Part shown: piece after piece, positions 9,134 to 62,053 of the stretch
Layout of the letters: each line of letters begins with the position of its first letter
How positions within the stretch are numbered: position 1 is the first letter of the stretch
Assembly (NCBI GenBank): GCA_036768485.1
Contig: JAVLUZ010000145.1
Span: 3,814,660 to 3,878,659, forward strand
Source of the DNA: Mermis nigrescens
Taxonomy: Eukaryota > Nematoda > Enoplea > Mermithida > Mermithidae
Length of the DNA: 64,000 nt
Direction of reading: 5' to 3'
Notes under the pieces: model-generated
Seen by the model: only the letters and a program-made list of their open reading frames with translations
The model's database searches: none
What the model was told of the DNA's origin: nothing
Translations under genes and position numbers: made by a program

Positions 9134-9690
9134 CTATCTGCTGAGCAGATCTTCAAAACAGAAAGTTTTCGTTGACCTTTAATGAGTTGTTTTTTATATT
9201 TTAGGTGTATCCTAGAGATTATGTAGTCATTTTCAATGAAGAAAAGCTTGCCGTTGGTAGTTCAGACCCAATTTTAGCACAAATTGTAGTCATTAACATC
9301 TGTGAATTAAAGTGTGAATGCTTCCATAAATTATTGACTTTTTAAAACCCATGCCAAAACCTGCTTCAAATGAATTATTGTTGCTCTAAGAGACGCCTCT
9401 TAATAAATATTTATGCATTTTCAAGAAAAATGTCACAGCTTGCTTAAACCTGGTCTAAATCACTTTCTTACCAAATGTGCGATATTGCGACTGAATTGTC
9501 TCTGAGAGCAGTGAAAACTCTGAACCCGAAATTCTGCTTTAAGTGCCATAAATTCCGTTATGTACTATCCTTCGTAAGGTACTGAAACAAATTTTGACAT
9601 TCATAACATGAATTTTTGCGACACTGAGCTTTAAATAGACGGAATTAGGTGTTTCACATGTAGGTTGGAGTTTACATTTGAATTTGCGCT
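9134..9690. other. Gene-free stretch
   Basis: No gene, RNA gene or recognisable transposon end is seen between the last hAT-like element and the left boundary of the duplicated segment. Confidence 0.5.
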
Positions 9691-10216
9691 GTATTATTAG
9701 CTATACTTACAGTAAGACAACGTACTCTTAGCACAGAGTTGACAAGTTATACCTCATCATTTGTGGAAAGTTTTATTAACTTTACTTGATTTATAAAAAA
9801 GTTATCGAAAAAAATGGAGATGTGCCCTATTTTTCCGGACACCCTATGTATATGCTTATCAGATTATTAGTGAATTTCTACGTTGCCGATTTATTCCATT
9901 GCTTATGAACATGAATTTAATAAGAAACGAGCAATCACAAATGAATCACTTTGATCTGGAAGCTCTTATTAATGGCTATCTTGGCTTACTTAGTTTTTTC
10001 ATTTGTACATTTGGTTTTCTGTCAGTCAGCAAAAATCATATTTCGCTTCTGTATTTTACTATTTAAAGGAACCTGCAAATTACCTCGGTTTTTCTTTGCT
10101 GTATATTTGCATTAATCACTTTGAAATGCTTAAAATGATAAAATTATTTAGTGGCTCCGTTACTTTAGTGCATTAAATCAACAGTCACAGCTTCAAGTTT
10201 CCAGAAGAATCTGATT

Positions 10217-13200
10217 ATGACTTCTCTTAAGCTGCTGTCGGAGTCAAAGTGCTTTGATGGACTTCAAAGAGTTTATAGTCATTACAGGTAGTTTTGATTA
10301 AGGCCCTTATACTCTTAAGTCTTATAGTTGGTGTGCATACAGACACTACCGGACCCTATTTTGAGGGGGGCAGCAGGCTGTCCTTTAGCGATTAGTCATT
10401 ATGAAGAGTAAATTATTGAGAAGAATGAAAAGATATCGCTTTCTTCGTATGAGTTTAAAATTTTGGGCTTCGTATGCATTGTCTTTTCAAATTTGAGCTA
10501 CACTGTGCGGCCAAAATATGTTCAAAACGTTAGACAGTTCCTACATTCGGGCACTGAGCCTGCTTGAGTTAGTCATGTTGTATATATATGTGTGAATGAA
10601 AGAGGAATGATAAATATGTAGCAATAGCGAATGTATAAAAGCTGCATATTTCAATTTATTAACGGGATAGATTCGATAAATTTTTTAATTCATGTATTAG
10701 TAGATGTAAGCCTTTCGTAACCTTTTCATAGAATCGGACATATTAAGATTTACCCGATCCAGAAGGTTTGGAGATACTGAATCTATCATAAATTGATTTA
10801 TAAGGCATTGTTTCCGCATCTGAGAGATTGAATATTTTGCTTTGAAATCAGACTCATAATTTATAATTATATGTAACACCATCTAACCTACGTACATATT
10901 TAATCTTTGATTTAGAACATGAAAATCGCTTAAAAACATGGTTTCTCAAATCTTTGGAATAGGGGAATCATTGAATATGGTTTATTGCATAAGAAATTAT
11001 TGAAACATGATGCATTTTCAGCCCCGTATCCAGAATTCGATTGCAAGGGGGAATTGCAAACTTTGAAGCCGGATATCTCGATAACCATTAGGAGATATCA
11101 AAAGGGAAAGGCATTTTCGAATGTTTCTCGACAAGCTCTATATACTATTTCGAAGCAAAATTTTTGAAAAATTCCAAAAAAATTATCGTTTAAACTGTCT
11201 GCATAACTGATTTCTTGTCATCCAATTCATTAAAAACTTCTCAACTTTCGTTTTTGCCTTCAATCATTTTACTTTGCAAACAAAAACAACAGAGAAAATG
11301 AATATTCCGGCGCGAAGCGTCAGCAAAATTTGACATGTTCTCCATGTCTAACTTAACTTTGGGCAGTTTTGAGCTATTTAAAAGGCAAAAAGAGTACTTA
11401 AGCAATAAATCCGGCGCGGAACGCCGGAAAATTTTGAGTTTACTAGCCCAATGCTTACCCTGAAAACCTGTTTTCGCGACTTTCTGAATATATTCAATGC
11501 ATTTATCATAGCGAAGCGCCGGAAATTTTCAACATTTTTCCTCTTAAGCTCAATCTTGCAGCTTTGCGAATGTAAGCGACAGAAATTATATCTGTCACGA
11601 AGCGTCAGAAATTATCCACATTTTTACTTTTTGAAGCTCTTTTTTATAGGTTTTCAAAGATAAGCATGTTGCTATGCTCAATTTTGCACCTTTTTTTGAA
11701 GAGAAGAAATGCAGTAAATTTGATCTCACGGATAATGAATCCCTCCTTACCCCCTGGATACGGGCCTGCATGTTATATTGTATGTCCATTTTTTATATAT
11801 CACTATCTTTTTTTTGGGATCCGCTTATATATAATGAAAAACTTATAGCACTTGAAAAGATAGATGAGTAGGCAATGAATAATCTGTTGGGTCAGTCTTA
11901 TAAAACTAAATTTAGCAGTTTGGCTGTCGATTATTTAAAAACTAAGGAGTGACTCCTGACATTTAAAAGGGTGCGAACGCTTCAGATTAGATTCTATCGT
12001 TCATTCCTTGTATTTTAAAAGCCAGGCAACCAGTAATTTTCATTTTATGAAATGAATGACTAGAATGTTTTATGTGGCGCTGTATTACCTATTAATCGCG
12101 TTTACTGAATTACAGTGAGCAGCTGAAATGTCAAATGAATTTCGGCATATATCTTCCCGGAGACTGTTTGAACGAGCAGAATAGGAAATTTCCCTTATTG
12201 TTTTTCTTATCTGGTCTCACGTGCACGGAGGCTAATTTTATTCAAAAAAGTGGATTTCAGAGATATGCGGCAGAACGGTCAATAATTGTTGTTAATCCCG
12301 ACACATCTCCACGTGAGTGAATTGATTTTGCTCCCGACATGCGCAAGGGCACCAACCATATTCACACAGGTGCGTGGGGAGGGGTTTGGACGCCCGAGAA
12401 TCCGGCGAACCTCCTCTTTCAAAAATCGATAGACCCCCAGAATTGAATTTTGGTGCCATTTTTCGCGACTTTGCCCCATTGGACACCAGCATTAGGCCGC
12501 TGCCCATGCTTGGTACCATACAGGGTATTTTGAAATGATCTGTTGTCTTGAAAAACATATTTCTAGATTAGATACAAAAAACTAAATACACCATCTTGTA
12601 TAAAATTAAATTCTAAGTTTAATGGTGTAAGTTCCATTGAACAAGATTCAACCCTTATTGTTTTATTGCACAAAAACGAAACGAATTAAAAAATACAATA
12701 ATACTGTAAATATAATAATTATTTTCATTATAATTGGCATCATAACCTGACTTAACTCTTCAAACATGAAACACAACAACTTTTGAAACAAATATTCATC
12801 AAATTACAATTCAGACAAGGCGATACCTATTGAATTTTTGCACAAGGTTTAATTCAACCGACTTTCCTTGTGCATGAGTGTCTCGACTCTGTCCTTCAGA
12901 ATTTGACCCAGATCGCCGGTTCGGTTTGAGTCAGGAATGTCACCAGTCCACAATCGTTCGCCCCAGAATTAAATAGTCTCAGTTTCAAGAAATTTTGAGC
13001 TTTCTGAGTGAATAATCATTTCGGCGAGCAAGAATCGAAAACACGCGAAATCAAGAGGAGAGAAAGTCAAATTCAAAACCTATTTTGAAAACTTTCTTGA
13101 AGTTTACGCCACACTGCAAACAGATCCATAAGAAGGACATTGCTGAACGTAGAATTCAATTTTCTACAAGATGATGTGTCTACTTTTTCGTATTAGAAGT

Positions 13201-16200
13201 ATGTTTCGAAAGGTTTTCATTCTCAGAAAGGTTTTGATTTTTTACCAGAAATTTTTTTACCCCAGCAGATTTCGCGATTTTCCAAAACTTTAAGAAAAGA
13301 AGTTAAGCGTGTTTAGCTATCTGTTTATAAAAAGTGTCAAATTTTCGGCAGTAATCGGACGGAGGTCGCGGCCAGGCTCAGCGTTTTTTAGGAGCCTCGG
13401 CCTCGACACCGAGGGTAAAGCTAAAAGTTCCGAGGCGCCGAGGGTTGAAATAAAATTTTGGCAAGTTTAATTTATCTTAACACTTAATCTGTTGTTTACC
13501 AATCCTCTGAAGCATCGAGGCTGAAAATAAATTTTCCTTTGCTATAAAATTTGCCCTTGCCTGTCTTCTGACATGTGCTTCATCGAGCGTAAAAGGATAA
13601 ACGTCAAAGATTCTCGGCGCGTTGCGCGACATGTATATAATTACTGCAATGCTTATCTTCAGAAAGTTGCAAAATTGAGCTTAAAATAATTCAAATCTCA
13701 AACGCTTCTAGCGCTTCGCGTCAGACATAATATCTACATTGCATTTATTCAGAGAACTGCAAAAATAGCGTAAAATGAAAAATATCGAAAATTTTTGACG
13801 CGCTGCGCCAATCATAATTCATCTTATCTCAAGGAGAGACTACAAAATTTTGCAGCGATTTTACTTACCTTTGACCATCCCTTTTTTACATTTCCACATT
13901 TTTTAACATTTTTTTACATTTTTACATTTCTATGAACCTTGAAACTTTTAACTAAATTTCTGTAAGAAAAATTATTCTAGAGACGATCAAACAAGGAAAA
14001 AATCATTTTGCATGTAATTAACGGATTCTTCAGGCTAACCTTGACAGTTTTGGAAAAATACTGCCTCATGTCTAGATATCCTAAATCTGACAAATCAGGA
14101 GCAGGCATGCATGTGGGGGTTGGGGTGATGGAGTCTAGCCCCTCCCCCAGAATGGAAAAAATGGGAAATTTTCTCTGGAAAATGAGGCAAAATGACGGCA
14201 AAAACATTCAAATTGAAAATTTTCTCTAAAAATGCTTTATGTTAACCAGAAACTGTGTCGTAATGTAGTTTTAACGCTATTTTAGCGTTTCAATTTTTGA
14301 GATCATTTATCCGAGAAGGCTCAATTCTTGACCCTTCCTCTCAGACCGGCTGACCCTTACACCCAGATGGGCCATGTTGTGCATCCATGATCAGCAGCGT
14401 TTGTTTCAAAAGTAGTGTGTTTTGTCTCAAAAGTGCAGCAAATTCTAGCCATTATAGTTTTTATCGCAAAAACGCCATAACTGTAGAAACGGTATAATCT
14501 TAATTAGAGATGTACCGGGGCAGAGGCCGACCGGGGTCTATAAAGATAATACCTATATCAGAGTGTCGACTTATATATTTGTCCCATCATAATAGTGGTA
14601 AAATAATAAAGTAGTAGTAATATGATAATAATAGAATGATAAATAAAAATTCTTATAATTATGACGCTTAGCGCCTTTACTCAGGATAAGATCATATTCA
14701 GTTGAAACATTTTTCTTTCTCGTATTGATTATGTATGCTGTTTATGATTGCATAGTGGTAACTTTATAATACTTAGTTTTTAGTTTTTAAGTAAGCAATT
14801 GAATGGCCTTGAAATTAAACCAACATAATCAAGAATTTTATGAGGCATTGTATAAAAACAATTTAATTTTCAATTAGGGCTTTATGCAGCAAGTATAGTG
14901 AACTGCTCTCGCATCTACTAGAGCTGTAAGCAGACACGCAGTTAGGGGTTTGGAGAAAGTTTTTGGATGAATATAGTAAGATTACGGCCAGAATCGAACA
15001 ATAGTGAAGGCTAAAAATGATTGAAATCGGTCTGAACCTGAGAATTAATAAGCTATTTAGACATTTCTATAAATTTTTAATATCATTTTAGCTCGAAAAA
15101 TCTTTTTTACCCCAGGCTAATCCCAGACCGAAAATGCTACGCAAAATGCAACTGTGACCGAAAGTTATAAGTTGACATCATTTAACAATGATTGTTGTAA
15201 GGTGCAAATTTGTTGACTTGACTGATTGAACCAAAAATGAATTCCATCAGTTTTGTTTTATAAAGAATTAATTGATCTAAGTTTGCTGACTTCTACAGCG
15301 AAATCAAAGTGTGACTAATGAAATTCGAAGTTTCCGCTCATTACCTTACTTATTTCAATCAATCATTGCGACAATTTGCATCTAACAACAATATTAAAAT
15401 TTTTAGGCCCCGGTGCCGGGCCAGGCCCGGTAAAGCTTCAATCTTAACGTTGTTAATTCTTATTTATTTCATTTTAGTTATTTAATTATGCATTTTTTCA
15501 ATGTTCTAATTTATTTAACAGGATGAAATTGATTCAAAATCTACTGCTCCTAGACTACTAAATCTAATCTCACCGCTTAATGCAACTGGTATAGTGCATC
15601 ATTAAAAAAGACAAATTCATCATAAAATGATTTTTCTCACTTTAAGTATTGAATCTAACGCTATTCCCACTTGTGAACATTGCAACATGATAACTTTTAC
15701 TATGACTTATTTGTATCCTACCATCGACATATAATAGACTATGCCTCGTACACACTTATAAACATTACCCTCGGCACGACCTCGTTCTCGGTGGCAAGGA
15801 TTTTTAACTGCCTGGGCCGATGGTCTAGAAAGTGTCCTCGGTCCGATCACCGATTTTCGACTCTTCGTATCATATACTCATTTTTTACTATAATATGTTC
15901 AAACTACTCGAATTTTTTGATATTTTTCTGTTTTTACGCTCTTGAAAGATGTAGCATCGTTAGAAATGCCGAAAAATGATGTTCCTGACGCTTATTCACA
16001 GTTTTTGGGCCCAAAAAGGCACTTCAAAATCTCAGGCCCCTTCCCAGAATCCCCATGCTGTGTATGTCTGGAATCTACCGTAATGCTGTTAACTTTATGA
16101 ACCTAGTCCTTTGTTATAAAATCAGTCATATTTTCCTTCAAAATAGTCAGAGGCAGATTTAAGGGGAGGGGACGGGGCGGCCGCTCCCACCCCTTCCTAT

Positions 16201-19200
16201 TGGCCAAAAATATTTGGCGAGATAAGGAATGGATATGTAATTTGCGGTATTTGTTTTCTTGGCGGCCTGAATGTCATATTTTGTCGCTAGGGATAGGTTT
16301 TTGTAGCAGCAAACATTTATCATGACTTTTAAAACGATTCTTGGAACAGAAAGAGGTATTTCATCATAGTTTTCTTCCATTTTTAAGCATTAATTTTGAA
16401 AAATTTTAACGCTTCGCATTAAACGCTATAAAGGCAGGAAGTACGGTTGTATTTCGAATCTCTAAACGTCCTTCCTCGTAAATTTAAAAGATTTTCCGGC
16501 CCTTTGCGCCGCATTTTCGCTGAAGTCAAATAAATTTAAGAATTTTTTCGCACAAAAGTGTCGAAAATTTTATTGCTGCTCCAAAAATGATTTTAAATAA
16601 AAGCAGACAACGAAAAACGTCGAAAAACGCTATTTTGGTCGCGAAGAGCGAATTTTTAGACCTACTTTCGACCGTTTTGGAAAAAGTTGGGGTACCGCCC
16701 CCCTTACGAATATCCCAGATTCGCCACTGAATGTAGCATATAAGATTTTACCCTAATTGTTTTTGATTCGCGAATTAAGCACGCAGAATGGTTTTGATTT
16801 TCGAATTAGGCATGCAGATTCTGTTCTTCGTTTTGTACGTGAAGGCGCATACGATTTCAATTTCATACGAAAACTAGCGATTTTTAAAGCAATATATGTT
16901 TCGCCCAATCTATGTATTTTTGTGCCAATCCATAACATATTTTATTTTATTCGAATTGAAACAACTCTTTGGCAGGTGGATGCAACATTGATGGAGAGAC
17001 AGATAGTTGGGATTTCGGACTTGGGGCTGGTTTTTACGTTGACTCTGTTGAGCCGAAGTGGTCGAAGAATTATCGGATGTATTCCTACGTCTGTGCCGAA
17101 GTAATGCAGCTAATTTGATGATTACGAAACTGTGTTAACGTCAAAATGTGGCCTCTAAGAAAACAGAAAAGAAAACACAAGAAGCTTTTCTGAATGACAA
17201 TGTCAGATGATAAGAGAATAAGAAGTTTTCGCGCACAAACACACGTATACTGAACCAATATCTTTATCAAAAGATAGTGTTATTCTAGAACTAGTATACG
17301 CACATATTTAGGTGTTAGGGATGTTCCGGGTTAGATTTGTTTCTTAATTATTCGGGTTCGGGTTTGAAATTTTTTGAATCTCCGGGTTTAGGTTTACAAA
17401 TTTAATAAACATCGGGTTTGGATTCGAGTTAGAGTCTGGCTTTTTATGTTTTAACACTAATCATGTTTTTTTCTCGTTGCGACGTATGTATAATGCATAA
17501 AACAGACGCAATATATGTTCTAAATTTAGTTACATGAACATCAGCATATTTGCGAAAAGCCTCAACTAAATTCAAAGATTGTAAAACAAGCGATATCTTG
17601 CGTAGGTCAAGAAATAAGTTTTTCTTTTATGGAAAGGAGAATTAAAGTCAAGAGCATCGGTTTTTTAACTTCGTATTTTATCGAAGATGAAAAACACTCT
17701 ATATTCAAAGTTGAAGATTAGGCAGCCTGTAATTAGAATATTGGTAAAATTTAGATACAGGATAAAATAGAATAAATAAATAAGTAAATAAAACCTCGAT
17801 CTTGATGAAAACATAATAAAACTATGAAACTATTCCCTCGAATTTTATCAAATCGACAGATGTGGCTTGCCCTGCTTTACACCTTAAGTTTCAATCCCTC
17901 GTCAACAAGAGTTGACTAGTTATTATTTAGTCAATAACTTATGGTAAATTTTGTTATAAGCTTAGATGTCCAAATGTTTTCCTACTTTTTAACAGCAAAA
18001 AAGCTAATATTTCGCCTGCGGCATTACATAAATTATATTATTGTTTAAAAATATGCACGTATTCACCCGTGTTCGTGCGCTAAATTATAATTGATATCAC
18101 TATCAGTAATGTATACACGCTTGCTCAGTAGGTATATAAATGTCAGTAAATGAATCAAGAGTTAATTACATGAAGAAACGTGACTAAACTTGTATATAAA
18201 AGATGCATTATTTTCAAAAGTTGCAGGTACTTAATTAATTGAAAAATTAAAAGTATTTTATCTACAAAAATTGTTAAGCTTCTTTACTTATGTTAGCATC
18301 TTACTTTTCCAAACGCGAAAGAAGCCGAAAATTTTTAGCAAAAGCTTCGGGTACGGGTTCGGGTTTCAAATTTTGGGATCTTCGTCGGGTTCGGGCTTGC
18401 CTAGCGGGTCGGGTTTTTTCGGAGCTCGGTTACCGAACACATCCTTATTAGGTGTATAATCGTTTTTCTTTAATAATGTAAGACTTCTATGTAGCATTTT
18501 CAAAAAATTTCAACAATTGTATGGTTTTAGCTGAAATTTCTCTCCACTGTCCCGCAGAATTTTGATTTATTATTAGTTGTACTATAGTTTTGTACTCGCT
18601 AACACTGCTTGATCTTTTAGTGGAGAGCTTGCTTCAGTACCTAGTGATACGCGTAAAAATTTGTTCATATACACAGATCAATGGTACGAAAAATTGAACT
18701 AGTGATTGATTTTGTTTGCATAGATTTTCGTGTTTTTTATAAGTAATGTACGTATATAGGCACGAGTAGGTAGACAAATAAATTGTAAAGTTAGGCATGT
18801 ACCGTATGATGTATTTCTCTATTGTTCCGCATTCGCATTAGGCGTGCGCACACACATATGGTCAATGATTTATTCATATTCTGTTGCTAATTTATTCTTA
18901 TTGGTCGTATCTCAATTCAGCACCTTGTTTGTCCCGTTTGTTTAAGTTGCCAGAAATAATCATACAAAATTTCAAAGTCGACGGTCAAAGAGTTGGAATT
19001 ACAGGTCATAGGTAAGATAAGAAACACTGTTCAATTATATCATGCATTATTCTAAAATAATATTTCTAAGATGATCATGTGACCCGCAGAATGCATAGAT
19101 TTTAATGTAAGAAATTATCCATTCCTTATATACGTGTCAATATTTGCTAGTTGTTTTTTTATTTTCGTCATATCATAGCTCGTACAGTGTGATCACTCGT

Positions 19201-22200
19201 TATTGACTTATAGCATGGGTGGCCACGGTGCTTTGATATGTGCCTTGCGGAACCCGTCGCTATTTAAATCCGCGTCGGCTTTTGCTCCTATAGCCAACCC
19301 TACAGAATGCTCTTGGGGTCAAAAGGCTTTCAGTGGTTATCTAGGCACGGATAAGTCGTTGTGGCTCCAGTATGATTCTTGCCACTTGGCGAAGCGATAT
19401 AATGGTTCCATGCTTGACATTTTGATTGATCAGGTCACTGCTTTTTTCTTGTACTCGGCAAAGATTTTTCCCGATGTACAAAGACTTTTCGGAACCGTCT
19501 TTGTACACGTACAAAGATTTTTGGGAAGACAAAAATTGCAAGGAAGGTCTAAAATTCGTAAAAATGTTCAGCGCTTAGCGTCGGTATGAATAATTGTGTG
19601 TTCTATATATCTTTATAATGGCAGAAATTGCATTTCAAAAGAGAAAATGTCAATTTTTTCTGCGCTTAGCGTCGTTTTAAGACGATTCTTAGTGATTTTT
19701 GCCCTTAGAGACCCAGAAATTAGCTAAAATACACTACTAAAAGTCGAACAACTCTGTTTTTACCACACTAAAGTCGCTATTGTACCATATTATAGTACCC
19801 AAAAATTTGTTTGTACAAAATAGTGCAAAGACTTTTAGGGACCATCTTTGTACATGTACAAACGGAACTTGTACAAAAAAAACACTGGATCAGGTGGCTT
19901 TTTATAATAACCGTTGTGTGCATAAATCTGCAGGGATAGAAAACAGAATTATTTAGTAATTATACCTTACGTATATGTGTATGATTCAATAGGATGCATT
20001 TTCATGCTTATGCACTATGTAGCTAAACAAGTCACAAACGTATGTACATTTTAATTTCTATATATAAATATGAAATATGTATATATAACGTTAAGCACGT
20101 TATCCTTAAAAATAGATTTGCTTCATCTCGAACTTATTCTCGTAAATGAGCTTCACTAAGATTCTGGCGATTTTTAAAGATAATGTTATATGTGAGAAAT
20201 AACTAAAACGACTTGATCATGAATGGGAGCATCTTGATGGAATAATTGATTGTGGCGTTCACGTGTCAAGTGAACCCAATTTCATTTTCAAGCACGGCAG
20301 CGCTGAACTTTCCAACTTGCGTGAAAAGCATTATGAATCTGAAATTGTAAATTGTAATTCGTAGATGCATTGAAATTCACGATCTCACGCAATGATTAAT
20401 GACAGAATGTATTAAAAGCCTAAGAAGGATTGCATAGTAATAAATTTCGTAGCGAGAAAAGCAGTACATGTACACATCATACGATTTAAACTGGTAGCGC
20501 TAGTTGTGTTCGTCTTAATTTCTCCCCATTTGCCATATTTGTGATGGTAATTTTTCATTACGCAAAGATGCCTTAGTTTAACATTCTATACTCTAATACA
20601 GGGCGATGCCGACGAATTTATGGAGAACCTGTTGCCTGAAAACTTGGTAAAAGCTTGTTCTGAAAATGCCAAGATTAACTTGAACTTTCGACTGCAAAAA
20701 GTAATATATTTGACAGACTCGCATAAATCTGAAATCAAGACAGATGTAGATTAGTTCTAATCTCGTTTGATAAGTTACATTCTTAATTCTTCCGCTGTGC
20801 TCATTTGTTCCTTACACACATGCAGAGAAGGTATACATGGGCAATAGCCAAAGCTTCAGCCCGTTCAAATATGGGCTCTCAAAGGTCGATTGATCTCCTA
20901 TTGTGCCGAAAATGGGTCAAAAAAAGACAATTTCGTTTGAATTTCTATCATTTTTTCCACATTGTTTTAAAATCAGCCCATATAAATGGACCTTCCAGCC
21001 CGTTCAGCTTTTGTGTCAGTCCGTTCCATGTACGAACTGGGATGGGCTATTGCTCAGATTTACATGCAGGCCCATAGCCTGGGGGGCAGTTGCCCTCCTC
21101 CCCGAAATGAAAAAATTTGTTCTTCACAAGGGTTCCTTCAGGAATAAATGGAACATCTCGAAGTGCGTTTGAAAGGTCGCCAAAACAGGTTTTTTGCGTA
21201 CTTTTGAGCTATTAAGCGCATAATTTTGCGGCGCTTCGCGCCAAATTAATTGGTTCTGTATAGATTTTGTCTTTTAAACCTTTCAAATGTGAGTTAGACA
21301 TGAAGAAGATGTCAAATTTATCCGACGCTTCGCACCGAATCACTAATTTTCTGCTTGTTTTTCTTGGCAGAATCACTAAAATTGAGTGAAAATACGAAAA
21401 GATAAGAAACTGTTTACGGACTGGACAATGAGAAATCATTTGCGCAGATAGTTTATGCGATACGTTTTCATGTATAAATATGAGATATACGGGAAAATAT
21501 TTATTTTTTTCAAATTTAACTTCACCATCTTGTAGAGCTAGTTGAGATACGTTTAAAATGCTCTTATTCTTGAATATCCCCTAATGTTTCTCGAGATAGA
21601 TATCTGACTTTCAAAATCTTCTGACCTCCGAAATAAAATCCTGGCTACGGGCCTGCATACATGTAACGGCGCGAAATTTCGGGTGAGGTCCCCGACCATT
21701 TTTATGGGGGGAGGTAATTGATCTTCAATTTCTTGCCAAAAACGGCCTAAAAACACCTAAAATGGCCAAATAATTCATTTTTCTCCGAAAATCGAGGTTG
21801 GGGTCAAAAACTTTCTGGCTTTGGGGGATGTTGGACGACCAACCATGGGTGGGGGATCTCTCATCTCTGTCAAAATCTAACGTAAGTTGGGCTTAACAAC
21901 GAAAGCTATCCCCCATCTCCCTGTCAAAATCCAGGCAAAATGTGGGCTTAATAATGAAAGCTAAGTGGAACTAACGTTGATGCATAAGTATTTAATTTTT
22001 CATTACCGTTGAATTTAAAATATGAAACATCAGCCAGAAAATTAATGTTCGTCAATTTTTATTCGATAACTTAAGCCTAGACGATATTTTTTATAGAATA
22101 CTCTTAAGGATGAATTTGAATGAAGTTAATTCATGTAAACTATAAATTAGTTTACATTTTGTCAAAATTTTGTAAAGAAGAACTGGTATACTTGCAAGAG

Positions 22201-25200
22201 ATCAGTATATCAGGCAGGGACTAGACAAGCCATATAGAATGGGTTGGGTTCTAGACCCTCCAACTGAACAAATGGGAAACTTGTTTGGGAAAAGATAAGC
22301 CAAAGTAAAAGTCAAAAATTAATAAAAGGAAAAGTTCTGTGCAAAAGTTCTAAAATTGACCAGGAACTGTGGAATTGAGATCGTTTTTCTGCTATATTAG
22401 CATTTATACCAGGTTTTGAGGCCATTTCGGTTTAAAAAGCTGGTCAGGATGACCCTGAAGACCGGTTATGCTGTGCATCTGTGGTAGGGTTGTTATAGTT
22501 AACGATATTAAAACGAAAAATATCGTTTACGACGTTTTCTTAACAAATCGCTCAAACATCCTTAATTTTGCGCACTATTTTGGGTTAATGTGGTGGGCGG
22601 CCGCCCCCTCTCCATCAACTAACATCCGACCCTGCTCGTTAACGAAACGATATCCTTGTTTGCGAGTCGTCGTTAACGAAAACGATGCTAATTTCGAGAT
22701 ATTAATATCGTGAAAATAACTTTAATTTTTCTGTACATTGTATTTGATCCTATTCGACTATATAGTACCTAAATATGTACGGCACGACTTTGCTGAGGAG
22801 GCTGCTGGCTGAGTTGGAGGGAGGGTACAACAGACAGGCAGAGCCAATCCTACTGCTCTACGAAATTTGCTCCTAAACTTACTTTTATTCAGTATCAACT
22901 GTCTCTAGCTTAATCGAAGACAGTGATGATTGTATCTTAGATTCTATAGGTATGATTTTATTTTGGATTCTTCAGATGCCGATCCTTCAAAGAACCCTAT
23001 TTACAGGACAAAAAAGTTTTCTGTGATACACGGTTATTTCAAATTTGATAATAGAAATTCAAAGTGTAAAAGTTCTTCATTCTAGATTATGTTATTTGGA
23101 TTTAGCGGTGTTTATAATTTTAATCCGTTTCTAATACCTACATTTTGAATTAAAATTAAATAAAGGCGGTATCTATAGGTCCAAAAATAGGTAAAGTAGG
23201 TCCGAAAATTAGCCCTTTATGTACGAAGTAGCCGTTTTTCGGCGTTTTGCGTTGTCAACTTTTATTCAAAATCGCTTTTGGCGCAACATTTTTCGGAAAA
23301 TTTTCAATTGTCTGACAGTTTTGCTCGAAAAGAATCATGGAAGTGTCTTTGACATTCAGCTGAAAATCTGTCGCGAAGCGCCGCAAAATTCGTGAAATTT
23401 AACCACCAGTTATTTATCCTACAAATTATTTATGAGCAATGGGAAGGAGGTGGCGGCCGGCCGCCCCACCGTTCCTGCTTCTACGCCGCTTATAGTCTTA
23501 TTTATATTAGATTGAATTTACGCTCACGTGTAAAGAATTAGAGGTTTTAAGCTTATGTATCTAGGTATAGCACGTAGCATATATGAAAATTACAAGAAAA
23601 GTACTGCTTGTGGCGACATGTCTCAGCCAGATCAACAAATGAGAGTAAAACCACTCAGTGAGTAATAGATGGGTAGAGATTTAGAAGTATGTACCTATAT
23701 TGGCTTCGATAGTCTGTTTCAAAATTCTTTAGGCCTCTTTTACAGTAAGGTGATTCAAAAGTGTAAACAATTCAGTTCATCGGCAAAAGACTTTTATTAC
23801 TTTCCGTCTTTCGAGCTATGTGCTCCGCCAGTCGTCTCCTGCATATATTTTGCTCCTTCGGCCTTTGCTTGGCATTATTGCTATTCAAATTTAGGTTTTA
23901 AGTGACCATGTGGAGATGAAATGAGATGGCTGAGATCGAGCCCGATACCTTTCAAGTCAAAGGCAGGCGTCTTAATAACACATGGGCGTGAGGGTGGGAG
24001 TCTAAGGATGTGCTAACATCCCCATAATCTGAAAATCCCCAGCGAAAATCGATAACGCTCGGAATCGAATTTTCTGGCTTTTTTTGAATTTTCGCTGGTT
24101 TTGACCCCAAAAATTTGGCTGCTGCCCATGTAAGGTCTTAACACTTAAGCTATCAGCGGGAAACGACCGCGTTGTTTGAAATATTAGTCGATTGTCCAAA
24201 CGTGAGACGGTTGGGTAAGAATGATCTCGCTCCTCTCGCTTTACACTATTTGGTTGAATTACTGATGCTTTCGAATCACCTTACTGTAGAAAGTCATAAG
24301 AATTTTGTAGCAGACTGTAAGAATAATGATAAAAACATGAAAATAGAAAAATGCTGAATATCATTGTAAAAAACGGATATTAATATCGTTAACGATATTT
24401 TTGAGGTCGTCGATTTCGTTAATAAAACGTTATTTTTTCTGGAAATATATTGTTAACGAAAACGATATCTTTTTTCACTAATGATAACAACGCTTCTTTA
24501 ATAGGGTAGGGAAAGGAGGGACATATTTAATTTTTTTCATTTTTTTCATTTTTTAGGCCCATTTATTTTCGTGTCAGAATGCATTGAATGTATAAAAATG
24601 TGTTTTTTTATATGAATACGAAAAATATAAAGCTTACTACTTCCGACGAAATCTGTAATTAGGGGCGAAAGAGCCGATATCATAAAATTGATTTTATCTT
24701 GTGAGTGGCCGGTTCTGTGGGGAGGGGGTCGGCACGATTTGTGGAGTAGGTGGAGAACTTTATTGAGCTGAATAGAACGTCAGTTAAAACAATTTTCATG
24801 TTGAAATAGCGCGAAATCTACATGTGAGGATAAATCCATTATTTATAAAAACTTCTACAATTTTTTCAAAAATACATCTTTGTTCATGTTTGACTTTAAT
24901 TTGCTTTAATAAACCGTAATTTAATAAATTGAATTAGGCCTCAAACTTGTATATCTGGTTATGAATCTAGGCATGATTCCGATCACTGGGCATTGTGCAT
25001 TATGTGCCTGCTAAGTTTGCAGCTTCCTAAGCAAAATCGATTTTAAAAATACATTTAAAAATTCTGCAAACTAAAAGTTATGAAATGTGATGCTTTTTCA
25101 TATGTATAAATGAGGTACGATCGTTGCAAAGGTTTTTAATTTTATCGATTGATGTTCGGTGAATCTCGTAGATTAATTTTATATTTTTTAAATTTTTCAG

Positions 25201-28096: not shown

Positions 28097-28516
28097 CATA
28101 CATGATCTTGGGTTGTTTGGGGGGTTTTTCACCCCCCCCCCCGCAGAATCATTGTTCACCCCCCGCAAAAAATTTTTTACCCCCCCCCCCAGAATTGGCG
28201 ATTTTTCAAAAGTTTCCTAAACTTACCTGAAAATTGGTAGAAAAAGTGTCTTTTTAAGGGTTTTTGGCTATCTATTTGCTCAAAATCGCCAAATTTTCGG
28301 CGCTTCGCGCCATATATTCATGTTTTAAGCGATATATTGGTCAATTTATTCGACTTTTTTAGTAATTTGTTTCATGATTTCATGCTCTAGAAGGATAGAG
28401 TATCGTCAGAAACGCCAAAAAACGATGTTTTTTAACGCGTACCGGCCATTTTTGGGCCCAAAAAAGGCACTTTAGGTTTTCACCCCCCCCCAGAATTCCC
28501 ATACTGTGCATGTATG
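28097..28516 (+). mobile_element. MITE of the CATACATG family, TSD GTGGTGAC
   Basis: Its termini are CATACATG and CATGTATG. GTGGTGAC is duplicated at 28,089-28,096 and 28,517-28,524. The interior has C-rich tracts and the palindrome GGCGCTTCGCGCC at 28,299-28,311. The same family, inverted, interrupts the virus-type gene at 32,138-32,542. Confidence 0.8.
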
Positions 28517-29662: not shown

Positions 29663-29976
29663 GGCTGTAAAAATGACGTTTTTTGCTCTGTTCGAGACAA
29701 ACTCATAAAAACTAACTATGCCTAAATTTCTTTTAAATTTTCCTATAAATAGATGCCAAAAATATTTTGAGTGTAGGTGGGCGACCGCCCCCTTTATCAC
29801 TAAGTACATATGTGAACATGTGAGTAGTAATATACGACCATCTGGCGTCAGGGAGATGGGCAACTGTGTAAGCATAGGCAAGTACGTCACATCATCGCTT
29901 TTCCCCAGTCGACCTAAAATATGATTCATAGGGCTCGCTCGCTAACATCATAAAAAACGCGCTCGTTTGCTTTTAA

Positions 29977-30067
29977 TTAAATCTTAAACATTTCCAGCAT
30001 AATAAGCACCTTCTTGAAAAATTTATGAACGGCGTCTTCGCTTTTAAGACCAACCATTAAAACGGTA
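29977..30067 (-). pseudogene. TBP homologue (locus 1), C-terminal piece
   Basis: The minus-strand frame ends at 29,977. It contains T-V-L-M-V-G-L-K-S-E-D-A-V followed by a basic amphipathic tail, matching the last strand and helix of the TBP C-terminal lobe (family pattern S-G-K-x-V-L-T-G-A-K then a helix). It is separated from the rest of the gene by the fold-back element 30,068-31,237. ATTAAAAC(G/A)GTA is duplicated on both sides, so the two pieces were one gene before the insertion. Confidence 0.7.
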
Positions 30068-31237
30068 ACGTCCCGGGTGACCGACAGTCCCGGGTGACCG
30101 ACAATCCCGGGTGACCGACAGTCCCGGGTGACCGACAGTCCCGGGTCACCGACAAATAGTATAAAAATAGATCTGTCAATCAAAAAATTCTCGAGTGACC
30201 GACAGTACCTACTGGCCGACTGTTCCGAGTGGCCGACAGTCCCGGGTGGCCGACTGTACCGGGTGGCCGACAGTCCCGAGTGGCCGAAGTCCCGGGTGGC
30301 CGACACTGTACCGGGTGATCGATAAATGGCATAAAAATTCCCAAATGACCCGGTTGTACTATTACTATGAATATATGTACGTAGTATGCACGTACATTTT
30401 TTCAAAATCGAAACACGTAATTTTTTCATTCTCTCAGAATAGCAATAAAGTTTTCACTTGCATAAATGTGAATATAAACTTATTATGTGTACATATTGTA
30501 TATAAATTTATTAATTGTACATATTTAATATAAACTATCAAAACTAAAAATTTTGTATCAAAGATTCATTTTTGTCCAGTCGTCGTTAAGATCTTGAATT
30601 ACTTATATTCCTGTGCGCGTTAAATTCGGCCTACAGCGTAGTTTCACATGCGCAATGGAATGCATAAGCAATGAATCGCGTTTAGGCACCTTCAGAATCA
30701 AAAAATTCTAAAAATAAAACCTCATTTGCATTTTGAATCGGGCGGATAGTTAATCCCTGTTTTTGTCAAAATAAACATTTTTAAGTGGAGCGTATAGAGT
30801 GCTCAGTAGTTTCGCATGAAAAATGGAAGGCGATTTTAGCTATGAACTCATATGAGCAATGTTATTGCATTGGTAAAACTATTTATGTGCATAAATAGGT
30901 ACCTACTTGAAAAAGCATTAATTCCGAAATCATTAGTCAGTTAGGAATTTTTATGACAAACCTATTATTATACCACTTGTTGGCCACCCGGTACAGTCGG
31001 CCACCCGGGACTGTCGGCCACCCGGTACAGTCGGCCACCCGGTACAGTCGGCCACTCGGGACTGTCGGCCACCCGGTATAGCCGGCCACCCGGGACTGTC
31101 GGTCAGACGGGAATTTTTTGATTGACAGATCTATTTTTAAAACCATTTGTCGGTCACCCGGGACTGTCGGTCACCCGGGACTGTCGGTCAACCGGGACTG
31201 TCGGTCACCCGGGACTGTCGGTTACCCGGGACACAAT
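30068..31237. mobile_element. Fold-back element with CCCGGGTGACCGACAGT minisatellite arms
   Basis: The left arm (30,071-30,345) is a 17-bp tandem repeat, CCCGGGTGACCGACAGT and variants. The right arm (30,956-31,234) is the same array inverted. About 600 bp of AT-rich loop without a gene lies between. The block TAGATCTGTCAATCAAAAAA is present in both arms in mirror position. The flanking duplication CATTAAAAC(G/A)GTA (30,055-30,067 and 31,238-31,250) marks a TBP-like gene as the target. This architecture resembles Drosophila Foldback elements, with a different repeat. Confidence 0.75.
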
Positions 31238-31690
31238 CATTAAAACAGTACCGTTGGTAAAAATTAAAGCCGTGGCATGAGGAAAACTTAATTTAGCGGC
31301 TGGAAATAATTCAGGCTCTAAGCGCACAAACTTTTTATGCATGCGAGCAAAACCAGCAATGTTTAACCGACTGTTCATTCTACCCGTTCCTACTACATTA
31401 TGTACTTTTAACTGCAAAATTTGTAGGTGTAGCCGCTCTGTTGTGAAAAATGCACATTTTTTCATTCGCTAGCTTGTTTTCATGTATGCTCTTTGTGCCT
31501 ACACAAACCAGTTTTCCAGAGCTTAACAATAAACCAGTATATACTCTTTGGCTGCGTTATTTTAAGAATTGAGCCGTTAAACTTTCTTGGATCGTATTTG
31601 ACGCCGTTGCATGTTTTTGCAATTTTATACAAATCTAAGGGTTTGCGAGACAGACGACTTGTGGAAACGACGTTCAAATCGTAGCCATTT
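31238..31690 (-). pseudogene. TBP homologue (locus 1), N-terminal lobe and most of C-terminal lobe
   Basis: Read on the minus strand from about 31,690, the sequence shows N-V-V-S-T-S-R-L then K-Y-D-P-R-K-F-N-G-S-I-L-K. It then shows S-S-G-K-L-V-C-V-G-T-K in the next frame, and after a second shift V-H-N-V-V-G-T-G-R-M and L-E-P-E-L-F-P. These are the conserved blocks of both TBP lobes, in order. At least two frameshifts and the fold-back insertion make it a pseudogene. It lies just downstream of virus-type genes on the same strand and has no spliceosomal introns, unlike most animal TBP genes. Origin (host retrocopy or element gene) is unresolved. Confidence 0.72.
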
Positions 31691-31727
31691 TGAATTAAAA
31701 TGAATGAAAACGCGAGTATTTATATCT

Positions 31728-32884
31728 TCAGAAGAACGAAGTCTTGACTTTACGAAAATGTAACTTGACAATCACTTTTCCAGAAATAAACGGAATAAAT
31801 TCATCTAAATCATCTTTAATGTTAATTTCGATACTCGAAATGTCCTTAACAAGAATAGGTACATAATGGGGGTAGTCGAATGTTCTGTCAATAATGTTGG
31901 AATAGGAGCCCTCTACATTCACGATTCTTAACAAAGGAGCCGAAATGTCTCCAACGATTTGTGGTTCCAAAATATTTGCGTAAATGTACAATACTTTGAT
32001 GCCCCCAACGTGCATGTTTGGTTCATTAACGCCCCATGTTGATTTCGTTATTTTATCATCTTGAAACCTAAAATTTTGGTTATTTCTGGTAATAATGTCA
32101 CTGATTTTACAATTTCACTGTACACTATTGTTTGTACCATACATGCACAGCATGGGAATTCTGGGGGAATGAAAACCTAAAGTGCCTTTTTTGGCCCAAA
32201 AATGGCTGGTACGCGTTACAAAACATCGTTTTTTGGCGTTTCTGACGATACTCTATCCTTCTAGAGCATAAAATCATGAAAAAAATTTCGAAAAAAGTCG
32301 AATAAATTGACCAATATATCGCTTAAAACATGAATATATGGCGCGAAGCGCCGAAAATTTGGCGATTTTGAGCAAATAGATAGCCAAAAACCCTTAAAAA
32401 GACACTTTTTCTACCAATTTTCAGGTAAGTTTAGGAAACTTTTGAAAAATCGCCAATTCTGGGGGGGGTAAAAAAATTTTTGCGGAGGGTGAACAATGAT
32501 TCTGCGGGGGGTAAACCCCCGAACCCCACAAAATCATGTATGGTTTGTACTCGTTATATCGTACTGAAGTATTTAAAAAATATTCCTTTTTCACAATTCC
32601 GCCTTGTTTAGAAGGCAGAATTGCAACATCTCAACAGTTTCATGTATTTAATCGTAACACCCTAGCGGTATCTTAATTACATGATCAGCTTCATCAATGT
32701 CTGTTATACGAATATCAGTTTTTTCAGTTTTAAGCGTTTCCCAATTGTGTGGGTAGATTAGTTGACATGGACCACATTCCCAATCTCCAGTTGACTTAAT
32801 TTTTGTGGTAAATGTGCGGGAAATTCAGATGGGGTATTTTGCTTATCGCTAGCAGTGTTACTACGTAAAGTTACATGAAATTGA
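31728..32884 (-). pseudogene. Polinton/adintovirus-type structural-like protein, broken
   Basis: Minus-strand frames start near 32,884 with a block resembling the N terminus of a protein often found in invertebrate Polinton-like or adintovirus-like loci (F-H-V-T-L-R-S-N-T-A-S). It changes frame to a Y-P-H-N-W-E segment. A CATACATG MITE interrupts it (32,138-32,542), and it resumes as a segment containing H-V-G-G-I-K-V-L-Y-I-Y and L-E-P-Q-I-V-G-D and ending at 31,728. It is recognisable but non-functional (frameshift plus insertion). The family assignment is from memory of the pattern; its exact virion role is not claimed. Confidence 0.55.
32138..32542 (-). mobile_element. MITE of the CATACATG family inside a virus-type gene, TSD GTTTGTAC
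   Basis: Its termini are CATACATG and CATGTATG, with GTTTGTAC duplicated at 32,130-32,137 and 32,543-32,550. The interior matches the copy at 28,097-28,516 in inverse orientation, including GGCGCGAAGCGCC at 32,340-32,352. Confidence 0.82.
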
Positions 32885-32885
32885 T

Positions 32886-33345
32886 CTATTGTTGAGAAAT
32901 TTGATCTACAATAAAATTATCATCTATTGCTACAGTGTGAATCTTAAATAGACCATTTACAAAACCCGTTACAAATTCATCAGCATAACTTTTTCTAAAC
33001 TTTGTAAAATTAAATTCATTGGGACACCCCTGCAGCGCCATACTAAAAAAATTATGCACAATTGCCCACACGTTGACGTTAGAGGTTTTTGCACGCATTT
33101 TTATTACATTTTAGATTCAGTGCGTATTTCAATACATAATCACGCGTTTTTTCGCTAGGCGGTAGTCCATAGCTGTCAAAAATTTCACATTTATCGTGCA
33201 CATCAAAAACATGCATACCGAATGGGACCCGGGCAGATAACTAGGGTCCATATTTATTACTAATGCCGCTGGTTTACTAAAAATAACAGGCTGTTTATTG
33301 CATGGAAAAACTCCACACAAAATTTGACCAACAGCTTGGTCGCTT
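32886..33345 (-). pseudogene. Adenain-like cysteine protease relic
   Basis: The minus-strand frame from about 33,345 reads C-G-V-F-P-C-N-K-Q-P, then N-M-D-P-S-Y-L-P-G-S-H-S, then in the +1 frame I-F-D-S-Y-G-L-P-P. This is the signature region (D-P-x-x-x-P-G-x-H-W and D-S-Y-G) of the adenovirus-type maturation protease encoded by Polintons and adintoviruses. The Trp after the catalytic His is lost. A frameshift lies between the His and the D-S-Y-G motif. The segment where the catalytic Cys is expected (V-C-G-x-Y-C) reads N-V-W-A-I-V. It is therefore inactive. It lies between an F54H12.2-like gene and a structural-type gene. Confidence 0.6.
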
Positions 33346-33381
33346 TTTAAAACAATGGTCTATTGAATAGTATTCATTTTC

Positions 33382-33861
33382 TTATGCTGTATAGTCAAAC
33401 AATACATTGCGGTGCTTATCTAACATTACTAAATTGTCAAAGCCGGCATAAACTATTACTTCTACGCCAGTATCGGGAATTTTTTCTGCAAAAGAAATTT
33501 CAATGCTAGTGGTACCCGCCTTAATTAGATCCCAGTGTGCACCATCATCTTCATCAGGAGTGAGATCAAATGCAAAAAAGCACTGACCGTCTTTGAACCC
33601 TTCTCTAGTTATACCATTGCCTTTGTTGTCTCTAGCCATGTCTAGCGTCTCAGAAAGTTGATCAAATGCTCGCAGAAATTTTCCCTTTTTAAAGTCCAAT
33701 TTCGTAGTATTATTAGCTATTCTTACAGTAAGACAGCGTACTCTAAGCACAGAGTTGACAAGATATACCTCATCATTTGTGGGTAGTTTTATCAACTTTA
33801 CTTGATTTATAAAAAAGTTATTGAAAAAATAAAGATGTGTCCTATTTTTGCGGACACCCAT
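33382..33861 (-). pseudogene. F54H12.2-like protein, C-terminal part
   Basis: A 159-codon minus-strand frame contains F-F-A-F-D-L-T-P-D, G-T-T-S-I-E-I-S-F-A-E-K and a final segment L-V-M-L-D-K-H-R-N-V. These resemble the C terminus of the F54H12.2-like proteins widespread at invertebrate Polinton-like loci. The frame is open, but the full-length protein of this family is about 500 aa, so the N-terminal part is missing. The left boundary of the duplicated segment (33,706) falls inside this frame; copy A keeps only the 5' portion (9,690-9,850), decayed. Confidence 0.5.
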
Positions 33862-34223
33862 GTATATATATGCTCATCAGATTATTAGTAAATTCCTACG
33901 TGGCCGTTTTATTCCATTTCTGCTGAAAATGAATTTAATAAGAAAAGAGCAATCGCAAATGAATCAGTTTGATCTGGAAGCTGTTATTGTTTATCTTGTC
34001 CTTACATAGTTTTTCATTTGTTCATTTGGCTTTCTGTCAGTCAGCAAAAAGCATATTTTGCTTCTGTATTTTACTATTTAAAGGAACCTGCTAATTCGCT
34101 CGGTTTTCTTTGCTGCATATTTGCATTAATAACTTTGATATGCTTAAAGTGATAAAATTATTTAGCGGCTTCGTTACTTTAGTGCAACAAGTCACAAGTT
34201 GAAGTTTCTAGAAGAATCCAATT

Positions 34224-53561
<19,338 letters not shown>

Positions 53562-61109: not shown

Positions 61110-61271
61110 GGGGCGGCGGCAGCCGTTTTTTATTGTATTCCCAATCCCAACGGCCCTTTTAAGGGCCACTAAACTAACAGAAGTGTATATTTTGCAAGCG
61201 TACGTATTGTTATTATTTTTGGCACAAAAAGTCAAATTTTCAGTGCCCCTACTTTTTTCAAATTCTTTTTC

Positions 61272-61769
61272 TCATTTGAGTAGTACAGTTAGTATGAGCT
61301 CGGTTTGACTTAGATGGTGTATGTATTTAGCTCCAGTTACCATGACTTTACCACTAGTGAATAATATGGCTGTCGTGTTTCTCAGCCTGTAGACGAGCCC
61401 GGGAAAAATCTCCGGCTCATATTGGCATTTTTTGCCCTCTTTTTCGTAAAAATTGGCTAGATTTATTGGAAAATTTAAATTGAATGAACCGACAAACATG
61501 TGAATTTTGACTTTGAGATTAGTGCTTGAATCGATGATTTTTAATCCTTTTTCTAATGTCTACTTAGCTTCTTCAACCGTTTTCGATCCCACGCACACGA
61601 TTTTTCCAGACTCGAAAAACAGTAAAGCTGATTTTGGTTTAGTCATACGAAAAATTAGACCTGGAAATTTAAGCGGTTCATATTACGTACTCAGATAATT
61701 ACTGTAAATCTGGTGTAAATTGATTCTTTTCTTGCTGTCGACACTACTGACGATATTCTGAACCTTCAT
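61272..61769 (-). pseudogene. TBP homologue (locus 2) with two nonsense codons
   Basis: A single minus-strand frame of 165 codons starts M-K-V-Q-N-I-V-S-S-V, the classic opening of the TBP core. It shows [21 protein letters not shown], then in the second lobe Y-E-P-E-I-F-P-G-L-V-Y-R and F-T-S-G-K-V-M-V-T-G-A-K. Both pseudo-symmetric lobes are present and in frame. A TAA at 61,683-61,685 and a TAG at 61,560-61,562 interrupt it; nothing else is broken. It lacks introns and the long N-terminal domain of host TBP. It is clearly diverged from locus 1 and is not a recent copy of it. Confidence 0.82.
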
Positions 61770-61839: not shown

Positions 61840-62049
61840 TTACTGTAAATAGGGGTGTAAACTGATTATTTTCTTGCTGTTAAGGAAAGGATAACGTTTC
61901 AAGACTCTTTTTCCCATTTCCTGACTAGCACGATTAAATTCTGCACACTTCGGACACATTTCTATATGTATGTACCACACGCCTGAATTTGTTTCGGAAA
62001 AATCTCTCGTTGAACTTTTATTCTGACAATATTCACACAAGTGAATCAT
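61840..62049 (-). CDS. Small zinc-finger-like frame upstream of TBP homologue
   Basis: A 69-codon minus-strand frame starts M-I-H-L-C-E-Y-C and contains a second pair, C-P-K-C, about 26 residues later. That gives a C-x2-C / C-x2-C arrangement suited to one zinc site. It lies 70 bp upstream of the TBP homologue on the same strand. The GTGTAAAG repeat begins 5 bp upstream of its ATG, so its promoter is displaced. Family unknown. Confidence 0.35.
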   Translation of the reverse strand: MIHLCEYCQNKSSTRDFSETNSGVWYIHIEMCPKCAEFNRASQEMGKRVLKRYPFLNSKKIISLHPYLQ

Positions 62050-62053
62050 CTTA

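Follow-up and report, generated by a model that had tools for sequence, protein, structure and literature searches.

A decayed Polinton 3' end in the window

We analyzed a 64,000-nt stretch of DNA from the parasitic nematode Mermis nigrescens (contig JAVLUZ010000145.1; hereafter the window, meaning the whole stretch) in which a homolog of the TATA-binding protein (TBP) lies among genes of a Polinton/Maverick element. By sequence comparison, positions 29823-33710 of the minus strand are the decayed 3' end of such an element. Tblastn searches with element proteins from better-kept relatives, such as locus L017, recovered the C-terminus of the major capsid protein (MCP), a protease, a 251-aa protein, and TBP in this order, reaching down to position 29983; the same four-part order on one strand had been proposed by a first-pass annotation made from the letters alone. 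The locus is colinear with the element copy L029, with blastn identities of 93.8% over 32539-33710 (1178 aligned columns), 92.7% over 31234-32137 (908 aligned columns), and 78.9% over 29823-30070. Chance is excluded because the first two stretches are this similar to L029, whose gene order matches.

The MCP fragment (33382-33710, minus strand; tblastn to the L017 MCP, 4e-60) belongs to a double jelly-roll (DJR) capsid protein of lineage D and is nearest to L029. It lies in a frame (33382-33873) that the first-pass annotation had singled out as F54H12.2-like, and that contains the final ~108 aa of the MCP. Blastn similarity to L029 ends at 33710, inside this frame, and the upstream portion of the frame is partly duplicated at 9678-9812. 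The adenain-like protease gene (32874-33407, minus strand; tblastn to the L017 protease, 8e-26) is present as predicted, although frameshifted. The gene for the 251-aa element protein (31731-32889, minus strand; tblastn, 1e-63 and 6e-48) is interrupted at 32138-32538 by an insert, to which no strand was assigned, that appears as a gap in the blastn alignment with L029; part of this insert (32187-32481) is an inverted copy of 28170-28464 (295 nt, 96% identity). The first-pass annotation had taken this protein to be structural. The family is indeed present, and a structural role is probable, a guess from its place among the genes; an intact relative had no Pfam match at 0.1.

The N-terminal lobe of TBP and the greater part of its second lobe are spread over three frames at 31234-31690 (minus strand), and the tblastn pieces at 31674-31238 matched the lineage-D TBP at 1e-28 (best) and 1e-10. 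The C-terminal piece lies at 29980-30070 (minus strand), where a tblastn match at 30144-29983 corresponds to aa 137-184 of the lineage-D TBP. Between them is a 1.2-kb insertion of the fold-back type (30071-31233, no strand assigned), also seen as a gap against L029, with CCCGGGTGACCGACAG-type repeats in both orientations and GTTTTAATG at each edge. The TBP homologue reported earlier is thus present, but since it is split by the insertion, the locus has no intact two-lobed gene.

TBP genes in the elements of the M. nigrescens genome

From 2551 candidates, a PF00352 profile search of the genome (523,963,438 bases, 860 contigs) produced 150 scored rows, two of which represent the host TBP gene. 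Among the matches listed, 140 of the 148 non-host rows were stop-free within the matched lobe, and 107 had both no stop and an open frame of 172-188 aa. Merging the rows within 3.2 kb yielded 137 loci including the host gene, so that at least 136 non-host TBP loci are present. Most of these are known from the profile match, and the gene surroundings were read for a subset: 20 stretches around TBPs, one being the host gene.

Lineage-D copies (L017, L023, and L024) carry, in order, genes for the packaging ATPase, a 125-aa, a 235-aa, and a 147-aa protein, the MCP (453 aa), the protease, the 251-aa protein, and TBP. TBP also follows the 251-aa gene in L018, which is adjoined by a second element copy in the opposite direction, and the upstream DNA of another lineage-D copy (L168) contains an integrase gene and pieces of a gene for protein-primed DNA polymerase B (pPolB). 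TBP is reversed and placed between the integrase and the ATPase in lineages E, J, and K (L019, L020, L025, and L026), follows the MCP and ATPase in L028 (lineage X), and lies near pPolB in lineages B, C, and F (L013-L016 and L021). No pPolB was present in the stretches read of L022 and L027, and no capsid gene in those of lineages A, B, C, and F, nor was pPolB in those of lineage A. TBP is therefore a regular gene in the lineages read, at three or more different positions. The first-pass annotation had regarded it as element cargo; it is borne by the element, but as a regular gene and not as occasional cargo.

Loci were also sampled from the MCP list, with 17 chosen to cover its groups and not at random (L029, L030, L031, L032 with L154, L033 with L155, and L156-L167). 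TBP was found at the expected place in 15 of the 17: L029-L031 have the same gene order as the window locus, and 12 of the 14 further loci have TBP in the corresponding position. The two loci without it there, L158 and L159, have a neighboring 251-aa gene that is itself truncated (at aa 79 and 143). A listed TBP lay less than 20 kb away at two of the 17 loci (L029, 11.6 kb; L159, 14.8 kb), and neither was the expected one. TBP is within 3 kb of all 12 MCPs scoring at least 1011 bits. This sampling led us to reject the idea that TBP and the Polinton genes are chance neighbors, and it supports the earlier view of TBP as a gene carried by the element. TBP forms part of the element rather than being a stray pseudogene. 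Shared terminal-looking sequence occurs 0.2-2.7 kb after TBP in five of the seven lineage-D tails compared (L017, L018, L023, L024, and L030) and is absent from the other two (L029 and L031).

Other genes adjoin TBP in some lineages. F-box genes lie near it in lineages A, B, and C (L010-L016 and L022), and a zinc-ribbon-like protein with C-x2-C pairs is encoded near it in lineages A and C and in L020; both proteins are possible host-interaction cargo. The zinc-ribbon-like neighbor was considered as a TFIIB-like factor, a candidate dropped for want of Pfam support. In the lineage-A stretches L010 and L012, F-box genes form inverted pairs flanking TBP and the zinc gene, and the pairs in L010 have chromodomain-like ends matching the integrase tail; these stretches are perhaps a shortened element form that retains TBP.

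Polinton identity of the elements

The pPolB profile PF03175, on which the protein-primed class assignment rests, matched L014 (1.1e-19), L013 (9.8e-14), and the lineage-D copy L168 (7.8e-11), in which the gene is broken. Integrase (rve) matches were obtained for L020 (2.3e-11, with a chromodomain), L026 (3.3e-14), and L168 (2.9e-13). The packaging ATPase of L020 matched Pox_A32 at 23.1 bits (cut-off, 22.8) and that of L028 at 21.1 bits, under the cut-off; the partial L017 ATPase frame had no Pfam match. A profile check of the protease had been proposed with the first-pass annotation: the intact L017 protease matched PF00770 at 3.1e-7 (30.7 bits; cut-off, 21.3), and that of L020 scored 20.3 bits, just under the cut-off. 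The lineage-D MCP matched a Pfam DJR-like family at 20.1 bits, below the cut-off of 27. A structure model of the protein P0002, which is 82% identical to this MCP (predicted local distance difference test score, pLDDT, 84.9), matched the MCPs of PBCV-1, Sputnik, and mavirus at 4e-14 to 3e-12, pointing to a DJR fold. The 147/182-aa and 251/261-aa families are candidates for the minor, penton-type capsid protein by place only, and the Pfam scan gave no family that accounts for the members scanned. RNA polymerase was matched by none of the 37 frames scanned, which come from partial elements.

The element TBP

The profile check proposed for TBP was likewise positive: the L017 protein matched PF00352 at 3e-48 in two stretches that correspond to the two TBP repeats. 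A profile built from 15 element TBPs matched 35 distinct PDB sequences, and all except the ECU04_1440 protein are named TBP, TFIID, or a fusion; the name "double stranded DNA binding protein" appeared only in the fold search. The model of the metagenomic protein P0123, which is 55% identical to the L017 TBP, had a pLDDT of 94.8 and a template modeling score of 0.91 to TBP-DNA complexes. Both Glu residues of the stirrup, which contacts TFIIB, are kept in 14 of 14 element TBPs. Three of the four Phe residues that kink DNA are invariant in the same 14, and the fourth is Phe in 13 and Tyr in one; we take these to be the roles of the residues, as we do for the TFIIA-contact region considered below. 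The element TBPs thus have the fold, two lobes, kinking Phe, and TFIIB stirrup of cellular TBP, whereas they lack a long N-terminal extension, are intronless, and form clades apart from animal TBPs.

The ratio of nonsynonymous to synonymous substitution rates (dN/dS) was 0.11-0.15 in six of 10 pairs from four lineages, and the other four pairs were saturated or without synonymous change. As estimated from these sequences, the element TBP is under purifying selection. Identity between the lineage-D protein and the TBPs of other lineages is 32-39%.

Origin of the element TBP

The host TBP gene is on contig C73, separate from the element copies, and has at least two exons. In a tree of 55 TBPs (26 unnamed rows picked from 99 matches, plus named references, with no TBP-like factor, TBPL1/TRF2, included by name), the host protein groups with those of Trichinella and Trichuris, as expected of a mermithid. 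Lineage-D TBPs join metagenomic TBPs, the other lineages form one clade (99% ultrafast bootstrap), and neither element clade joins animals; several deeper nodes are weak (33-70%). Trees in which the element TBPs were forced together with the host, Trichinella, and Trichuris were rejected by the approximately unbiased (AU) test (6e-74), as were those in which they were forced together with Metazoa (4e-97) or in which each element clade alone was forced into the host group (1.5e-4 and 2.9e-4). The tree and the AU test rule out a host retrocopy or processed pseudogene as the source. Fast evolution could exaggerate the depth of the tree but could not hide a recent retrocopy. Neither of the findings that would have spoken against the first-pass annotation, relatives of the element that lack TBP everywhere or a tight grouping with host TBP, was obtained in the capsid-list sample or in the tree.

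When all 14 element TBPs were constrained to a single clade, the AU test rejected the result (3e-4; Shimodaira-Hasegawa test, 0.09). This constraint is unfair because the metagenomic TBPs that join lineage D may themselves be element TBPs, and the comparison supports no conclusion on one versus two captures of TBP. The metagenomic TBPs P0121-P0125 and P0127 (173-182 aa, on contigs of 0.9-1.4 kb) are 43-55% identical to the lineage-D TBP; therefore, the gene may occur beyond this host. Scans of IMG/VR with TBP and MCP, as single proteins and as alignments, confirmed no relative. A scan for the exact 14-base box, described below, gave at least 120 stretches, and 0 of 120 encoded any of 26 element proteins at 1e-2; the 80 listed stretches had one match each. 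These stretches look like chance because none encodes element proteins and each has a single match.

TATA boxes before element genes

An extended TATA box, AAAGTCTATAAATA or AAAGTCTATAAAAG, is located upstream of the MCP gene in lineages D, E, and X and of the zinc gene in lineages A and C (the zinc gene has the same upstream box in L010-L012 and L014), and the same or a close form precedes the 147/182-aa gene in lineages D and E. Boxes were counted within 100 nt upstream of 87 gene starts from 16 loci, with dinucleotide shuffles as the control. The form AGTCTATAAA occurred at 15 of the 87 starts in the sense direction and at one in the antisense direction (shuffle mean, 0.01). The pattern TATAAA[AT][AG] occurred at 42 starts in the sense and 11 in the antisense direction (shuffle mean, 5.37; maximum, 12), and some of the antisense boxes stem from divergent neighboring genes. 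An earlier count under other rules found AGTCTATAAA at 21 of 115 starts in the sense direction, at two in the antisense direction, and at none in gene bodies. The element stretches (191 kb, with some redundancy among copies) contain this form 30 times and the 64-kb window does not contain it; a longer form with at most one mismatch occurs five times in the window (expected, three).

Four elements were re-read with family start codons. Thirteen of the 14 free-standing genes in them have a box at -31 to -56, the sole exception being the L020 ATPase gene, compared with six of the 17 genes that overlap the previous gene or start 2 nt after it. This placement ties the boxes to gene units and suggests that the lineage-D units are those of the 125-aa to 235-aa proteins, the 147-aa protein, the MCP with the protease and 251-aa protein, and TBP.

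The box form also differs between TBP clades. It is mostly TATAAAAG in lineage D and TATAAATA elsewhere, and boxes ending in AG made up 11 of 14 in lineage D versus one of 30 elsewhere (AG versus TA, Fisher test, 7e-7, which for related sequences is not a true probability). The box form AGTCTATAAATA and the shared core GTCTATAAA both contain TCTA.

Other features of the window

A second TBP, of lineage C, was found by tblastn at 61251-61763 (minus strand) with in-frame TAG and TAA codons, and a fragment of the zinc-ribbon-like protein, the neighbor of TBP in lineages A and C, lies at 61888-62055 (minus strand; tblastn to the lineage-C zinc protein, 2e-27). This TBP is one of three at ~8.4-kb spacing; the other two lie outside the window (G000:C51:3884571 and 3892956), and the tandem duplication extends past the window end. 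Direct repeats at ~8.4-kb spacing are also visible in the window. A direct segmental duplication (approximately 11179-25196 and 39983-53388; pieces 88-97% identical) has a spacing of ~28-29 kb, and the TBP-Polinton locus is located between its two copies. Frames resembling the reverse transcriptase and endonuclease of a long interspersed nuclear element were identified by eye at 35900-39153 (minus strand).

Discussion

Since TATA boxes precede many element genes and the elements have a TBP of their own, these elements may operate their own promoters with the host RNA polymerase. Judging from the sequence comparisons, we consider it likely that the resident TBP recognizes TATA promoters of the element itself and brings in TFIIB and RNA polymerase II (Pol II) from the host. 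The element TBP would bind and bend the boxes ~31-56 nt before many element genes, its conserved stirrup would recruit host TFIIB and Pol II, and the capsid, integrase, and other units would be transcribed without dependence on host TFIID. We infer the binding, the recruitment, and the independence from TFIID from the residues and boxes described above.

Several points weigh against self-transcription. Host TBP could read the TATA boxes, and box and TBP need not be partners. Only 18 of the 93 MCP matches lie within 20 kb of a TBP, among the TBP matches listed. No box by the TATAAA[AT][AG] pattern was found at 45 of the 87 gene starts, and the lineage-D TBP box, TATATAAGAG, falls outside this pattern and was added to the unit count by hand. 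Relatedness and partial redundancy among the copies that supplied the gene starts inflate the box counts and the contrast between clades. This contrast has three exceptions in lineage D: in L029-L031, the box upstream of TBP has TA as its ending. Nor is the TFIIA-contact region conserved across the 14 element TBPs.

A more specific form of self-transcription would be a private promoter system in which TBP and a TATA variant are matched to each other within every lineage, the variant being mostly TATAAAAG in lineage D and TATAAATA elsewhere, and in which the elements use host TFIIB and Pol II and avoid host TFIID control; the core GTCTATAAA might then be the ancient late promoter of mavirus and CroV (Cafeteria roenbergensis virus). 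We put this forward tentatively and think it rather less probable than not.

Two rivals both explain less than self-transcription. The element TBP may act mainly against the host, competing for TFIIB, TBP-associated factors, or host TATA boxes, and damping or redirecting transcription as a counter-measure during activation. The TFIIB-contact Glu residues are kept and the TFIIA-contact region has drifted, so that defective or private complexes are possible, and F-box proteins, which often serve to eliminate proteins of the host, are encoded next to TBP in lineages A, B, and C. The presence of boxes before gene units of the element itself, however, fits self-transcription directly and not sabotage, and we regard a mainly host-directed role as unlikely. 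It is more doubtful still that TBP is a captured, hitch-hiking passenger and that the boxes serve host TBP only. Host Pol II with host TBP should be capable of reading TATAAA boxes; yet the low dN/dS in four lineages, the retention of TBP at 15 of the 17 capsid-selected loci and in lineages whose TBPs are so divergent from that of lineage D, and the change of box ending with the TBP clade all argue against a passenger. We dismiss as extremely improbable the reading of the window TBP as a processed host pseudogene that happens to adjoin a Polinton. Its broken state and the lack of introns in the other copies would fit such an origin, but grouping with the host, Trichinella, and Trichuris was rejected (AU, 6e-74), the same order recurs in L029-L031, TBP occupies the corresponding position in 12 of the 14 further MCP loci, and the host gene lies elsewhere and has an intron.

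The elements share pPolB, an rve integrase with a chromodomain, an A32-like ATPase, an adenain-like protease, a DJR capsid, and many copies per genome with Polintons/Mavericks and the overlapping adintoviruses. They differ from these in the two-lobed TBP, regular in the lineages read, in the zinc-ribbon-like and F-box proteins of some lineages, and in the extended TATA box, common to lineages, before gene units. TBP does not, to our knowledge, belong to the standard gene set of Polintons. We found no report of TBP in animal Polintons in the available portions of the openly licensed literature searched (Polinton, adintovirus, Maverick, or virophage with TATA or TBP), and three papers on Polinton-type and animal DNA viruses contain no TATA or TBP term (PMC11071308, PMC11071296, and PMC10120064).

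Late promoters of mavirus, endogenous mavirus-like elements (EMALEs), and CroV are described as TCTA in AT-rich flanks upstream of genes, and the factor acting on them is believed to be supplied by the giant virus (PMC8547959). The M. nigrescens elements likewise have a short motif upstream of genes, and AGTCTATAAATA holds TCTA, a likeness at letter level; here, in contrast, the element itself carries TBP. Mirusviruses and Mimiviridae also encode TBPs; their genomes are far larger, and the giant viruses carry RNA polymerase. TBP is present in 59% of mirusviruses and in 0% of the Nucleocytoviricota set of the same paper (PMC10132985), is listed with TFIIB among shared genes of the Mimiviridae group (PMC3620924), occurs in Bodo saltans virus (PMC5871332), and is sporadic in green algal elements of putative mirusvirus origin (PMC10675990).

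Polintons are widespread virus-like elements of animals, and a TBP under selection in several lineages, together with boxes before gene units, makes the question of how their genes are switched on testable. In M. nigrescens, a mobile element carries a basal transcription factor of the same class as that of its host, one that falls outside the animal TBP clade, while using, as far as seen, the host polymerase. If the core GTCTATAAA is the promoter of mavirus and CroV, TBP plus a TCTA-containing box would be an old module of DJR viruses.

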